Assembly: GCA_030068145.1 (NCBI GenBank)
Contig: JAPJBO010000236.1
Location: forward strand, 124,001-188,000
DNA from: Diplonema papillatum
Taxonomy: Eukaryota; Euglenozoa; Diplonemea; Diplonemida; Diplonemidae
Reading direction: 5' to 3'
DNA: 64,000 nucleotides
Within the stretch, counting starts at the first letter, position 1. Each line of letters begins with the position of its first letter. The notes under the pieces are model-generated. The model was not told the origin of the DNA. It did not search any database and saw only the letters and a list, made by a program, of their open reading frames with translations. Positions 35,813 to 48,439 of the stretch are shown in pieces. A program made the translations under genes and the position numbers.

Positions 35813-35904
35813 CCTGTGATAGACTGTGATAGACTGTGATAGACTGTGATAGACTGTGATAGACTGTGATAGACTGTGATAGACTGTGATAGACTGTGAT
35901 AGAC
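35813..35904. repeat. 10-bp satellite array 1 (TGTGATAGAC)n, about 9 units
   Basis: Nine head-to-tail copies of TGTGATAGAC end exactly where the spliced-leader sequence begins. The same decamer forms the arrays at 39552-39770 and 41612-41852. A few isolated half-units lie near 878-965. Confidence 0.97.
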
Positions 35905-35944
35905 CTACCAACGATTTAAAAGCTACAGTTTCTGTACTTTATTG
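35905..35944 (+). other. Diplonemid spliced-leader exon sequence, genomic copy
   Basis: CCAACGATTTAAAAGCTACA followed by GTTTCTGTACTTTATTG (35908-35944) is what I recall as the Diplonema spliced-leader exon. It is not followed by the GT expected of an SL RNA gene intron but by GAGCAAAGAATG, as in a mature trans-spliced mRNA. I therefore read it as a reverse-transcribed mRNA 5' end, not an SL RNA gene. It lies 292 bp upstream of the reverse transcriptase start codon and is flush with the satellite array. Confidence 0.8.
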
Positions 35945-36235
35945 GAGCAAAGAATGTCAGTCTCACCTTCCTCTTTCTTTTTTCGGTTTTCGGACCGCTT
36001 TTTTCGGTAAAGCACAACCTCTTTTTTCGGTCAAGCACGCGGCCGCCCGAAGAGAGCCTTGCGAACCTCTTTTTTCGGTAAAGCACAACCTCTTCTTTCC
36101 GGTAAAGCGAACGGCCACCCGAGGAGACCCGCAAAGCGCCTTACGCATCTCCTTCTTTGGTAAAGCACACAAACACCCTCGACACGAAAAAACCCGTGAC
36201 GCGCTTCCATTTCCTCCTTTTCTGGTGATGTCGGG
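35945..36235 (+). promoter_or_regulatory. 5' leader of the reverse transcriptase element, with internal repeats
   Basis: The leader is pyrimidine-rich and holds at least five imperfect copies of CTCTTTTTTCGGTAAAGCAC (about 35990, 36018, 36066, 36094, 36147). Some copies are followed by ACGCGGCCGCCCGA or AACGGCCACCCGAGG. The repeats could be structural or regulatory; no function is known. Confidence 0.55.
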
Positions 36236-39175
36236 ATGAGAGACCGGAGAACGAGCGATGTGTGGCGGGACCTCGGATGCGGTCAGCGCGCCGAGGACGT
36301 GATTCTCGAGCTCCAGCTCGAGTATGTTGTTCCGGGGCACGCGTTCGGGTCCGACTGTGTGTGCGTGTTGGAGAGCCGGTTCGAGCCCTTGAGGGAGTGG
36401 CTCTATGTCGCGGAGTCGCTCGAGGGGTGGCGTGGTCGGCGTCAGTTCGTGTCGTTGGGAGAGCTGTTGCTGCGGGAACTGCGCATCGAGTTCGTGTGCG
36501 CCCGCGACGGGTTCTCGCGGAAGGAGTTCCGGATGCGGTTGCAGCTGGAGAGCGAGGATGCGCTGGACAGGGCCGTGGCTGAGCTCTGGTTGGATCGTCG
36601 GAAGATGGGCAGCGCACCGCCGTCCGAGGAGAGGCGGCCCAGGAGGAGGAAGCGCATCCCCCCGGCGATACGGCGCCGGCGCAAGCGCGACCAGTGCGAG
36701 GCAGGGGCGCCTCCGCAGCAGCCGAACCCATCGGGGGCTCCCCTCCTCCCTCCCCGAACAATCAACAACAACCCAACCACCCCCACGGGATTGGTCAATG
36801 ACGAGCACCGGCAACGCAACGCCGCATCGTCTGACTCCCGTGGGATCCGTTCAACTACCCGAGCTTCCCCGAACGAAGGGGAACCCCCAGCGCAGCGACT
36901 CAGCCTGGACCCAGGTCCGCAGAGCGACGCAGCGCGAGGCCCCGCAGGCGCAACGACCTGCGGTTACGCAGCGCAAGACGTCGGCCACAGCGGTCGTGTC
37001 GGGTGTGACAACCCATGCCCCGATGTGCTGCGACCCGGTCCGGTTGGTAGTTTCCCGTCAGGGGGACACGTGGCGTGCTCAAGCAATGCGCTGCGACCCG
37101 GCCCGGAGGAGGAACTTTTGGGGGCGAGACGTCTCGCAGTGGGCGGATGGAGTCCTGCCCTCGGGATGGCACCCGGGGTGGTAGATGGGCTAGGCCCGCT
37201 TTTGCCGCCAATCCCTGTGCAACCAGGAGTAACTCAGCTAGGTGTCACGGGGTTCGCTCCTTCTGTTTTTGACATATGGGAGGTCGGCGCTCCTTTTCCT
37301 TCTTCTGAGCTAGCCTTTGCAGAGGGAGCGCCTTCTCCGGAGGGTTTTTTCCCCTTGGCCTCCGCACTTCAGAGCGTCCCGGAGTTCAGGGTTGCTGATC
37401 TGCTGCCCGTCGAGGAGTTGCCCGCTCCGCCAGCCATGCCCGGCGCTGGGTTTACAGCTTTGCCGCCGCACGTGAAGGGGGATTGTCTAGCTCCGCTGAG
37501 CGACGTGGTGGGCCGTCGGGTCCACGGCTTTACCAGACGCGCGCACAACACGCGCATTCCACAGTCGCAGGCGGAAAAGGAGGCACCTCTCCACGTGGCG
37601 GCGGTGCCGGCCATGGACACCGCAGCGCTCCGGCACAGGATGCGACCCGACGTTCGCGCCAGATTCGACTCAGTCTGGAAAGCCACGTTTTTCCCCGTCC
37701 GGGATGTTCAAGGAGAAAACGCGTCCGAGGGCCAGCAGAGGAGGAGTCACCTCATGCACTCCCACGCTTCCGAGCTCGTGCGGCTAGGCATTGCGTCACC
37801 CTCCGACACGCCGGGCACTTTCCGCAACGTGCCTTTCACGGTCGTGGAGGACAAGGCGGGCCGCCTGCGCCAGCGGTTTATTTTGTGGACGCAGGAGGCC
37901 AACGACTTGCTGAGCCGCCAGGGCTACGTGGCCCAGGTACCATTGGGTCATGTCTCGGAGTATCTTGACGTAGTCGAGTCGGAGTGCGCCACAACGCGTG
38001 ATTTGCGTTGTGGCTTTTATCAAGTAGAGGTCCCGGAGGAGGCTCGAGAGAACTTCGGATTCCTCGATGAACAAGGCAATGCCTACGTCCTAAATAGGCT
38101 GCCAATGGGACACTCGTGTGCACCAGAGCTGATGCACACGCTAACAGCTGTGTTAGCAAGTCACCCAGACTTCGTTGGGCCTGAATTCACGGCCGACGGT
38201 GTGACAGTCCATGTCTGGGTGGACAATATTCGTTTTTGTGGGTCCCGTGCCGCAGTGCTCTGCCAGACCGAGAAACTCGATCGGCTGGCCGCACGGGCAC
38301 ATGCTTCTTGGAAGCCCGAGGATAGTAACGACGCTTCCTCGGGTTATGATTTTATAGGGGTCACTTTTGACCACGGTCGGAAGACCGTCTCTCCGGCGGC
38401 TCGCCTGATCGAAAAGATCCGGGCCGTCGATCTCTCTAGCCCCACCGCCGGCGATTTAGAATCGCTCGGCGGTCGTCTGCTCCATGCGAGCGCAGTCGTG
38501 AATGCGTTCCCCGGCTCGTTCTGGTTCGCCGTCAAGTTCTTGCGACGGATAACGAACAGCCTCAACAAGGGAACTCGCACGCAATCAGAGACTGTGCCTG
38601 TGCCGGCCTCCGTACGGAGAGATCTGCGATCGTGGATCGATTCGGTCGATGTGAGCAGAAAGTTCACGCGCCCGTCCACGAATCGCCCGTACGCGGTCTA
38701 CGTAGACGCGTCACTGCAGGGGTGGGGTGCTGTCCTGGTCGACCGGCAGACAGCAGAATTGACTGTGTTGGGTGGTACATGGACCGAGCAGGAAGCTTGG
38801 CACCACATCAACACACTCGAAGCACTGGCTCTGAAGAGAGCGGTGGATGCGCTACCCCCGTCAGTATCAGGGAGCGTGGTCGACGTCCATGTCGACAACA
38901 CGACCGTGGTCGGGGTGGCGCGAAAGAAAAACTGCATGTTGAACAAGTCATTGAATGACGCAGTTGTGCACGCGTTGACCCGACTACGGGATTTGAAATG
39001 TTCCTGGTCCATCTCGTGGATCAGCACGAAGGAAAACCCGGCCGATGTCCCTTCAAGAGTTGCCCTTGCCGCTGACGCCTCGGAAGAGGATCGACAGCGA
39101 CTTTTACTTGCGGTGAGGGCATTCTTTACTCGCGAGGGGGCAGGTGGCGTGACGTCGTCCCGGCGGCGATCATAG
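36236..39175 (+). CDS. Reverse transcriptase/RNase H polyprotein, DIRS/VIPER-like
   Basis: The 979-aa frame is intact from ATG to TAG. Residues 1 to about 540 are basic/Pro-rich and may hold Gag-like functions. The RT covers about 549-700: motif A is DLRCGFYQVEV, motif B NRLPMGHSCAPELMHTL, and motif C HVWVDNIRFCGS (about 655-667). Motif C has VDN instead of the usual xDD. RNase H follows with all four expected carboxylates: YVDASLQGWGAVL (about 820), HINTLEALALKRAV, DVHVDNTTVVG (about 885) and SWISTKENPADVPSR (about 926-940). This RT-RH layout, without protease, integrase or LTRs, recalls tyrosine-recombinase retroelements (DIRS, and VIPER of trypanosomatids). I found no recombinase ORF beside it, so the class is tentative. 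Being intact, it may be recent. It sits between two 10-bp satellite arrays and behind a spliced leader. Confidence 0.85.
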   Translation: MRDRRTSDVWRDLGCGQRAEDVILELQLEYVVPGHAFGSDCVCVLESRFEPLREWLYVAESLEGWRGRRQFVSLGELLLRELRIEFVCARDGFSRKEFRMRLQLESEDALDRAVAELWLDRRKMGSAPPSEERRPRRRKRIPPAIRRRRKRDQCEAGAPPQQPNPSGAPLLPPRTINNNPTTPTGLVNDEHRQRNAASSDSRGIRSTTRASPNEGEPPAQRLSLDPGPQSDAARGPAGATTCGYAAQDVGHSGRVGCDNPCPDVLRPGPVGSFPSGGHVACSSNALRPGPEEELLGARRLAVGGWSPALGMAPGVVDGLGPLLPPIPVQPGVTQLGVTGFAPSVFDIWEVGAPFPSSELAFAEGAPSPEGFFPLASALQSVPEFRVADLLPVEELPAPPAMPGAGFTALPPHVKGDCLAPLSDVVGRRVHGFTRRAHNTRIPQSQAEKEAPLHVAAVPAMDTAALRHRMRPDVRARFDSVWKATFFPVRDVQGENASEGQQRRSHLMHSHASELVRLGIASPSDTPGTFRNVPFTVVEDKAGRLRQRFILWTQEANDLLSRQGYVAQVPLGHVSEYLDVVESECATTRDLRCGFYQVEVPEEARENFGFLDEQGNAYVLNRLPMGHSCAPELMHTLTAVLASHPDFVGPEFTADGVTVHVWVDNIRFCGSRAAVLCQTEKLDRLAARAHASWKPEDSNDASSGYDFIGVTFDHGRKTVSPAARLIEKIRAVDLSSPTAGDLESLGGRLLHASAVVNAFPGSFWFAVKFLRRITNSLNKGTRTQSETVPVPASVRRDLRSWIDSVDVSRKFTRPSTNRPYAVYVDASLQGWGAVLVDRQTAELTVLGGTWTEQEAWHHINTLEALALKRAVDALPPSVSGSVVDVHVDNTTVVGVARKKNCMLNKSLNDAVVHALTRLRDLKCSWSISWISTKENPADVPSRVALAADASEEDRQRLLLAVRAFFTREGAGGVTSSRRRS

Positions 39176-39551
39176 CTTGCCTCATGGTCGGTGTTCCCCT
39201 TCGTTTGTTATGTGAGTATCCTGACTGGTGACCTTTTACCGTTCTCTTTCAACTGGAGTGGCCACGGCGGAACCCGTCAAGTGGGAGAACCCACCAACAG
39301 ACGAACGCAGGAAGGAGCTCAGGCCGAAGTTTGTAGAGCATCTGTGTGTGAAAGCGGAAAGTAGGTGCGAGAACAGGCAAACCTTGTGCGCTAGCTTCGT
39401 TCAACCGTGAATCAATAAGCAGGGCCTACCCCACATTCTCACTGTCATTTGAGAGAGAGAGAGCGCTGACAGAGGAACGCCAGCCGAACAACGGCTGCAG
39501 ACCCCGCCTCAGAACGAGTGCGATGATGCCAGAAGAAGCCAGCAACAATTC
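39176..39551 (+). other. 3' region of the reverse transcriptase element
   Basis: Between the RT stop and satellite array 2 there is no A-tail. A short plus-strand peptide (EPVKWENPPTDERRKELRPK, FVEHLCVKAESRCENRQT) looks coding-like and weakly resembles sequence near 41270. The phrase TCGGTGTTCCCCTTCGTTTG recurs diverged near 40003. It may be a remnant of another element ORF. Confidence 0.35.
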
Positions 39552-39770
39552 TGTGATAGACTGTGATAGACTGTGATAGACTGTGATAGACTGTGATAGA
39601 CTGTGATAGACTGTGATAGACTGTGATAGACTGTGATAGACTGTGATAGACTGTGATAGACTGTGATAGACTGTGATAGACTGTATAGACTGTGATAGAC
39701 TGTGATAGACTGTGATAGACTGTGATAGACTGTGATAGACTGTGATAGACTGTGATAGACTGTGATAGAC
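39552..39770. repeat. 10-bp satellite array 2 (TGTGATAGAC)n, about 22 units
   Basis: An almost perfect head-to-tail array with one 9-bp unit (TGTATAGAC) near 39684. All minus-strand frames stay open through it, which is a repeat artefact. Confidence 0.97.
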
Positions 39771-41611: not shown

Positions 41612-41852
41612 CTGTGATAGACTGTGATAGACTGTGATAGACTGTGATAGACTGTGATAGACTGTGATAGACTGTGATAGACTGTGATAGACTGTGATAG
41701 ACTGTGATAGACTGTGATAGACTGTGATAGACTGTGATAGACTGTGATAGACTGTGATAGACTGTGGTAGACTGTGATAGACTGTGATAGACTGTGATAG
41801 ACTGTGATAGACTGTGATAGACTGTGATAGACTGTGGTAGACTGTGATAGAC
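41612..41852. repeat. 10-bp satellite array 3 (TGTGATAGAC)n, about 24 units
   Basis: Head-to-tail copies of the same decamer as arrays 1 and 2; two units read TGTGGTAGAC. The outer flank (GGGTGGACCGGCTC, 41879-41892) is the complement of the flank before array 1. Confidence 0.97.
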
Positions 41853-47046: not shown

Positions 47047-48130
47047 GATGCACGGTATAGATGCACGGTATAGATGCACGGTATAGATGCACGGTATAGA
47101 TGCACGGTATAGATGCACGGTATAGATGCACGGTATAGATGCACGGTATAGATGCACGGTATAGATGCACGGTATAGATGCACGGTATAGATGCACGGTA
47201 TAGATGCACGGTATAGATGCACGGTATAGATGCACGGTATAGATGCACGGTATAGATGCACGGTATAGATGCACGGTATAGATGCACGGTATAGATGCAC
47301 GGTATAGATGCACGGTATAGATGCACGGTATAGATGCACGGTATAGATGCACGGTATAGATGCACGGTATAGATGCACGGTATAGATGCACGGTATAGAT
47401 GCACGGTATAGATGCACGGTATAGATGCACGGTATAGATGCACGGTATAGATGCACGGTATAGATGCACGGTATAGATGCACGGTATAGATGCACGGTAT
47501 AGATGCACGGTATAGATGCACGGTATAGATGCACGGTATAGATGCACGGTATAGATGCACGGTATAGATGCACGGTATAGATGCACGGTATAGATGCACG
47601 GTATAGATGCACGGTATAGATGCACGGTATAGATGCACGGTATAGATGCACGGTATAGATGCACGGTATAGATGCACGGTATAGATGCACGGTATAGATG
47701 CACGGTATAGATGCACGGTATAGATGCACGGTATAGATGCACGGTATAGATGCACGGTATAGATGCACGGTATAGATGCACGGTATAGATGCACGGTATA
47801 GATGCACGGTATAGATGCACGGTATAGATGCACGGTATAGATGCACGGTATAGATGCACGGTATAGATGCACGGTATAGATGCACGGTATAGATGCACGG
47901 TATAGATGCACGGTATAGATGCACGGTATAGATGCACGGTATAGATGCACGGTATAGATGCACGGTATAGATGCACGGTATAGATGCACGGTATAGATGC
48001 ACGGTATAGATGCACGGTATAGATGCACGGTATAGATGCACGGTATAGAAGCACGGTATAGATGCACGGTAGATGCACGGTATAGATGCACGGTATAGAC
48101 GCACGGTATAGATACGGTATGGGTGCACGG
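47047..48130. repeat. 13-bp minisatellite (GATGCACGGTATA)n, about 80 units
   Basis: Head-to-tail GATGCACGGTATA units run almost without change from 47047 to about 48053, then as variant units (GAAGCACGG, GACGCACGG, GATACGG, GGTGCACGG) to about 48130. Because 13 is not a multiple of 3 and no frame of the complement contains a stop, every minus-strand frame encodes the same 13-residue cycle IPCIYTVHLYRAS. I regard that as an artefact, not a protein. Confidence 0.98.
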
Positions 48131-48439
48131 TATAGGTGAGTGGATACTCACACCGCGTGGGTGGATACCCATCCTGCGGTCCTAGATGCACGTAGTATAC
48201 ACTCACACCGCGTAGTGGTGGTATACATACTAGCCCTGTAGTACCTGTCGTACTACGTGGTGGCGGTATGTGGTAGATACCACACCTCGTATGGTCCACG
48301 AGTAGCTGAGGATTGCATCCACGAGCTCGTGACCGAGGTCATCCTGAGAGGCACCACGAAAGTCGATAAAAGTTTTGGGTGAGAGTGCAAAGAATCTGTG
48401 GCGATAATCTGCATCGTCCGGCGGCGCGGTTCTCTCTTC

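Follow-up and report, generated by a model that had tools for sequence, protein, structure and literature searches.

VIPER and TATE are tyrosine-recombinase retrotransposons of kinetoplastids that belong to the DIRS order and carry split direct repeats, as set out in the passages of PMC6681497 and PMC12278014 that deal with them. A further passage of PMC12278014 concerns SLACS, CZAR and CRE, which insert into spliced leader (SL) RNA genes. According to the relevant part of PMC12014239 (citing Slamovits and Keeling 2008), dinoflagellate retrogenes carry relic leaders, tandem ones included, and for Schistosoma mansoni the corresponding section of PMC5832876 describes six SL-containing transposable elements, which were possibly trans-spliced and retro-transcribed, or else produced by chimeric assembly. 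The sections of the Diplonema papillatum genome paper concerned (PMC10161547) report an assembly of ~280 Mb, ~2500 retroelement-type gene models, and repeat units in which 5S and U2 accompany SL RNA genes whose exon measures 39 bp; no mention of the SL at element ends was found in them.

The window, by which we mean the whole stretch of 64,000 nucleotides that was analysed, comprises positions 124001-188000 of contig C236 of the marine flagellate D. papillatum, and a 271-Mb assembly of 2910 contigs of this organism was searched for related sequences. The window contains an element with an SL exon at its 5' end, set between two parts of a decamer minisatellite (Table 1). Judging from the sequence, this copy is very probably a VIPER-like split-direct-repeat retrotransposon that was copied from a mature trans-spliced mRNA.

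Table 1. Features of the SL-tipped element and of the neighbouring arrays, in window coordinates.
Feature	Position	Strand	Remarks and source
Left part of the (TGTGATAGAC)n minisatellite, the target	35814-35904		9.1 copies; Tandem Repeats Finder
Junction CTA	35905-35907	+	A possibly SL nt 2, CT extra; from sequence
Exon of the spliced leader, positions 3-39 of its 39 nt	35908-35944	+	Exact match; printed SL; SL RNA gene L026
'r', 38 nt past the trans-splice acceptor	35945-35982	+	Also in A2 of longer copies; blastn of copies, junction list
5' leader of the element	35945-36235	+	Homologous to outron-bearing copies from base 1
979-aa ORF, open	36236-39175	+	N-terminal part unassigned; RT by homology; RNase H
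Repeat B, 405 bp	39147-39551	+	Ends ...CAACAATTC; no A-tail; single in the window copy
Right part of the decamer minisatellite	39551-39770		22.1 copies, continuing the phase of the left part; Tandem Repeats Finder
Second decamer array, 1.8 kb downstream	41612-41852		Tandem Repeats Finder

In the preliminary description of the locus, the decamer array ended at 35904 and a second one began at 39552; Tandem Repeats Finder agrees, with a right start at 39551/39552. The SL exon had been placed at 35905-35944, and this holds exactly for nt 3-39 from 35908 onward, while the A at 35907 is possibly nt 2 and the preceding CT lies outside the SL. The same 37 nt make up positions 3-39 of the 39-nt SL listed as 'Euglenozoa 14' in PMC3795323, in a passage that does not carry the name Diplonema. 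At up to three mismatches the match is the sole one in the window, and shuffled sequences gave 0/100. A comparison with the SL RNA genes of the same assembly bears out the identification: in gene L026, adjoined by U2 and 5S genes, the exon is identical and is followed by GTACTTTAACACATCC. The statement that no GT intron follows the SL was also confirmed, the window reading GAGCAAAG from 35945 onward, which differs from the SL-gene intron GTACTTTAACACATCC.

The decamer array was probably there before the element inserted, since its two halves are in phase and decamer arrays were found on at least nine other contigs among the matches listed. It also exists without the element, both as the second array of the window and on other contigs. 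Pairs of decamer arrays ~1.8-2.6 kb apart were seen in the window (39551-39770 and 41612-41852) and, among the matches listed, on C8, C75, C102 and C120, as if they were part of a larger dispersed repeat. Elsewhere in the window, an ORF at 32161-32976 matches DUF659, a domain known from hAT-type transposases, and an 84-copy array of the 13-mer GATGCACGGTATA at 47047-48135 overlaps long open frames of the minus strand.

Further evidence comes from other copies of the same family. The 5' leader of the element has at least 50 matching stretches (40 of the 874 first-look candidates were scored). Thirty family loci were read: 20 carry an outron (18 distinct places, as L046/L053 and L047/L056 overlap), five the SL or part of it, and five have no junction. 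The outron, 126-136 bp long when counted from CTATGG, ends ...CCCAGCAG/GAGCAAAG (the slash marks the joint), and intact 5' ends of outron copies are CTATGG, which stands where the window has the junction at 35905-35907. The acceptor is the same in both copy types, ...CAACAAAAGCCCAAACCCAGCAG/GAGCAAAG in outron copies against SL/GAGCAAAG, and in 5 of the 25 loci with a readable junction the SL or a part of it is found exactly at the outron-copy AG. Two of the copies read have the full SL, namely the window and C22:502115; the latter is composed of SL, 5'UTR, ORF979, B1, A2 and B2 within (CTA)n, i.e. a spliced mRNA without an A-tail. The SL is shortened at its 5' side in C1437, where it starts from ACAG, and in C457, which keeps 7 nt only, and C461 is a chimera of outron-GAGCAA, the 3' part of the SL and then GAGCAAAG. 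In a related subfamily at C13, the SL is joined three bases upstream (SL/CAGGAGC), as use of a neighbouring AG would give. Across the whole genome, we counted 13 SL junctions (up to two mismatches, related subfamilies included) and 240 outron junctions (up to three mismatches, A1 and A2 counted together), and outron-bearing copies are ~99% identical to SL-bearing ones.

An SL at the outron AG, shortened SLs and an alternative acceptor form the pattern that is predicted by trans-splicing followed by reverse transcription. The SL of the window sits exactly where other copies have their AG-ended outron, which speaks for the earlier proposal that a trans-spliced element transcript was reverse-transcribed into the decamer array. 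Full copies without the SL do exist (20/25 with an outron), and the preliminary description had counted such copies against its own reading; since they show the acceptor AG at the point where the SL starts the element, they strengthen the case instead.

The genome as a whole contains 616 SL exons at up to three mismatches (backward-pattern control, 0). The SL RNA gene pattern, i.e. the exon followed by GTACTTTAACACATCC, occurs at 193 places at up to three mismatches, and most SL RNA genes are grouped in tandem arrays away from the window; 423 of the 616 exons are outside the gene pattern, some of them possibly divergent SL genes. Thirty of the 616 SL loci were read directly in addition to the family loci, and the remaining places were counted only; possible haplotype duplicates in the assembly bear on these counts. 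Two of those read start like SL RNA genes (L015, L026) and 28 do not, and nearly all of the 28 are embedded in long contigs and flanked by sequence at either end. On the cap side, an A stands at SL nt 2 in 23 of the 28 non-gene loci (P = 4e-10 against 25%) and at nt 1 in 5 of these 23, in a sample that is not fully independent, ten loci being from one family, and to which target preference may add bias. The first nucleotide at the cap is presumed to be modified, and reverse-transcription copying looks as if it had been halted at this nucleotide of the SL. Furthermore, tandem SL relics, in which a new SL is joined at CTACAG/ within an old one, were found 32 times in the genome, with some overlap among the places; 23 of them are exact, the control gave 0, and none was shown to belong to the window family. 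At C293:54578-54637 three overlapping relic units stand in series. Since the SL exon holds an AG of its own (CTACAG/TTTCTG), an SL-tipped copy can be trans-spliced again within the old leader.

Nine copies, the window included, were compared for architecture. Repeat A consists of the outron and the 38-nt 'r' past the acceptor, repeat B of 405 bp, and the order is A1-ORF-B1-A2-B2. All four repeats are present in C469 and C461, while the window copy has only B1. The end is B1-A2-B2 in C1437, C22SL (C22:502115), C461 and C469, and a single B in C2389, C1904, C22a, C236b and the window; as C2389, C22a and C236b lack A2-B2, the full repeat set is unnecessary for insertion. A2 retains the outron that trans-splicing takes off. 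Hybrid joins occur at the far end of 'r': in C1904, C469 and C22:369119 the A2-type TTTTTCCC runs directly into a leader position ~60 nt further downstream, and three other joins at the end of 'r' were seen in C461, C678 and C42.

The missing A-tail, already noticed in the window, is a trait of the family: none was found at the 21 distinct 3' termini read, two of which, C1984 and C2389, share a flank and are possibly one locus counted twice. Nineteen of the 21 termini end CAACAATTC, the exceptions being C456 and C967, whose final bases are different. Where both flanks were read, the targets are the decamer in the window and, elsewhere, (CTA)n, (CGTAGCGCAC)n, (CCCCTATATGA)n and further arrays; C540 and C984 have right flanks that are unlike arrays. 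There is hence no support for the decamer array as the standard target of this family, and it was rejected as a dedicated target, other copies being in other repeats and decamer arrays being present on at least nine other contigs. The flanks join in repeat phase, and since the targets are tandem repeats, a duplication of whole units would be invisible. SL-bearing copies keep the 3' end of outron copies (AATTC, without an A-tail), and both copies with the full SL are, like outron copies, inserted in tandem repeats.

The intact 979-aa RT/RNase H frame of the preliminary description holds as an open ORF with an RNase H domain at residues 816-899 supported by Pfam, whereas its RT part found no Pfam match in the 979-aa ORF and is called by homology to RT/RH-like proteins of Diplonema, T. 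theileri and T. cruzi. Some relatives of the ORF match RVT_1 below the cut-off. The RT box reads VDN at residues 662-664, as in the majority sequence of 16 aligned proteins; the window ORF is thus a predicted RT whose box departs from xDD. The ORF has 979 aa in eight of the nine copies compared (window included) and 614 aa in C236b. A tyrosine recombinase (PF00589) was not found in the 979-aa ORF or in the eight relatives scanned, and at least 150 PF00589 matches are present elsewhere in the genome. A profile search with the relatives reaches the T. theileri and T. cruzi proteins (E = 6e-99 and 1e-82, respectively); neither is named VIPER by its source, and we infer that identity.

The window family resembles VIPER and TATE, as far as these are described in the passages concerned, in its A1...B1-A2-B2 split direct repeats. 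No TSD is visible in its tandem-repeat targets, where a duplication would be masked. Its RT/RNase H can be aligned at ~30% identity with the T. theileri and T. cruzi proteins, and the W(V/I)DNIR box is common to the family and the T. theileri protein (WIDNIR), the T. cruzi protein having WIGNIR. It differs from the elements described there in that its ORF is without a tyrosine recombinase, its A repeat carries a trans-splice acceptor, and some copies are SL-tipped. As no tyrosine recombinase was found, the element is termed VIPER-like here and is not classed as a VIPER. In T. cruzi, the SIRE/VIPER repeat has reportedly been described as a source of a trans-splice acceptor, which would be in keeping with the present family.

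From these observations, a replication cycle may be proposed. The element would be transcribed and then trans-spliced in A1, and reverse transcription would proceed from the 3' end to or near the cap, reaching SL nt 2-3. Normally, the 38-nt 'r' common to A1 and A2 would let the cDNA switch onto A2 and regain the outron, whereas a failed switch would leave an SL-tipped cDNA to be inserted as it is, at the B end boundary. The recombinase would be supplied in trans, since none was found in the element and many are present in the genome. C461 looks as if A2 had been copied back onto an SL-tipped cDNA, and together with the hybrid joins at 'r' it may preserve scars of switching from SL-tipped cDNA to A2; in both, structures resembling template switching could also result from ordinary deletion or recombination. 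The CT between the decamer array and SL nt 2 of the window is unaccounted for by this model.

SL-tipped copies are not confined to the window family. Ten of the 28 non-gene SL loci form a second family that starts with GCTGCTCACGCGGCCGG or, in L020, with a downstream part of it. Its leader start has 77 genome copies, in 71 of which the 3' half of the SL is directly in front; of the other six, five were read, all with an altered or shortened SL or SL+TG, and the sixth starts at a contig end. The SL or its remnants are therefore present at 76/76 readable 5' ends, and no outron-bearing copy was found among these 76. The five copies missed by the SL pattern were considered as outron-bearing masters and rejected, all of them carrying SL remnants. 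The SL as a terminus does fit this second family. Its junction TTTATTG/GCTGC has no AG, so a renewed SL gain by its copies is unexplained; L020 shows an alternative acceptor, with the SL joined at ATCCAG/GACAAACA. SL identity across subfamilies that are 16-31% divergent was set aside as proof of renewal, the loci having been chosen by their SL, and the 31 nt after the SL are also identical in the nine of ten loci having them. The SL is not obligate in a third family, which starts with GTGGCTTACCGTGGTC and has 102 places: a perfect full SL adjoins 4 of its 25 places on C1-C371, a count that sees perfect full SLs and not shortened ones.

Among 16 ORFs scanned downstream of the SL, RVT_1 was found in L007 (above the cut-off) and weakly in L025 (below it), and an astacin domain in L006; the remaining ones gave no Pfam match above the cut-off within 1.5 kb. 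L006 (C11:365927-368963, minus strand) has an open ORF with the astacin protease domain nine bases past a full SL and is possibly a host retrogene with a relic leader. By eye, repeat B of the window holds CCTACCCCACATTCTCACTGTCATTT at 39425-39460, which is similar to the start GGCTTACCCCACATTCTCGCTTTCATTT of an SL-tipped RVT_1 family, seen in L007 and L008 just after the SL. Upstream of the SL, L001, L003, L013, L020, L024 and L027 have one repeated sequence in common, which these SL-tipped copies from different families enter at points that vary slightly; this suggests that the repeat is a shared preferred target. L004 and L019 have a common 56-bp stretch upstream of the SL and may represent a second outron-SL chimera or a common target.

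The occurrence of a host-type gene behind the SL (the astacin-domain ORF of L006) and of several different SL-tipped families raises the question of whether SL-tipped copies are by-products similar to processed pseudogenes, spliced element mRNA having been inserted in trans by unrelated LINE machinery. We regard this as unlikely, given that both full SL copies of the window family lie in tandem repeats like the outron copies, share their AATTC end and have no A-tail. The preliminary description had also considered use of the SL as the element's own terminus. A rival reading of this sort would be a fixed and inherited, domesticated 5' end which is not newly added by trans-splicing. The 76/76 SL-tipped ends of the second family would agree with such a view, yet for the window family it is highly improbable: 13 SL junctions stand against 240 outron junctions, the joints include shortened and alternative-acceptor ones, and the outron-bearing copies, ~99% identical, largely refute it and led us to reject it. 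The idea that the 5' terminus is made by an HDV-like ribozyme located at the SL end was likewise rejected: Rfam gave no match of this kind at E ≤ 1 in 20 loci, in which only U2 and 5S were above the gathering score.

Joining of the SL to element ends by chimeric assembly or as a cDNA artefact was raised by the Schistosoma authors for their own SL-containing elements, in the section of PMC5832876 concerned, but is hardly plausible in Diplonema, where nearly all of the 28 non-gene SL loci are inside long contigs, tandem SL relics exist and the cap-proximal ends are biased. The SL exon abutting the element might also recall insertion in or beside an SL RNA gene in the manner of SLACS, CZAR and CRE, a negligible prospect that was ruled out, as the SL-gene intron is absent after the exon, the other flank is the decamer array, and SL RNA genes are mostly in arrays elsewhere. 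The preferred explanation remains that of a VIPER-like element copied from its mature trans-spliced mRNA.

With SLACS, CZAR and CRE, as portrayed in the passage available, the window element shares a link to the spliced leader in euglenozoans; it differs in carrying the SL exon of its own mRNA, outside an SL RNA gene. The dinoflagellate case, in the part of the source that describes it, is alike in that the SL was reverse-transcribed into DNA, joined at the mRNA splice acceptor, with tandem relics from repeated cycles; those are host genes found from transcripts, whereas here the parents are retrotransposons, and the acceptor can be read from outron-bearing sisters. In the Schistosoma section, chimeric assembly was not excluded by the authors, and that section gives neither a comparison of acceptors nor a pattern across a family, both of which are available in Diplonema. 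Relic leaders of dinoflagellate retrogenes are thus already known, and the same has been suggested for six Schistosoma elements, in the relevant parts of PMC12014239 and PMC5832876. What appears new, and was not found in print in the sources covered, is an SL-obligate family and the link of trans-splicing to split repeats; in the parts of the openly licensed literature that were covered, neither families of SL-tipped elements in diplonemids nor a rescue of the outron through split repeats was reported, so that their absence from print is only weakly indicated.

Trans-splicing of essentially all mRNAs strips a retrotransposon of its upstream sequence in every round. Since matched copies with an outron, the SL, SL remnants and a fused outron-SL are found in one genome, the question of how such elements survive this loss becomes directly testable. 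The SL also marks cDNA insertions by strand and to the exact nucleotide, and likewise the point near the cap at which reverse transcription stops. If true, outron rescue would give a function to the split direct repeats that are described but not explained in the passages of PMC6681497 and PMC12278014 concerned. Tentatively, trans-splicing might shape retrotransposon replication in this lineage: VIPER-like split repeats might exist to restore the outron, and in at least one other family, in which every readable copy is SL-started, the SL might be an obligate 5' terminus kept by re-leadering.
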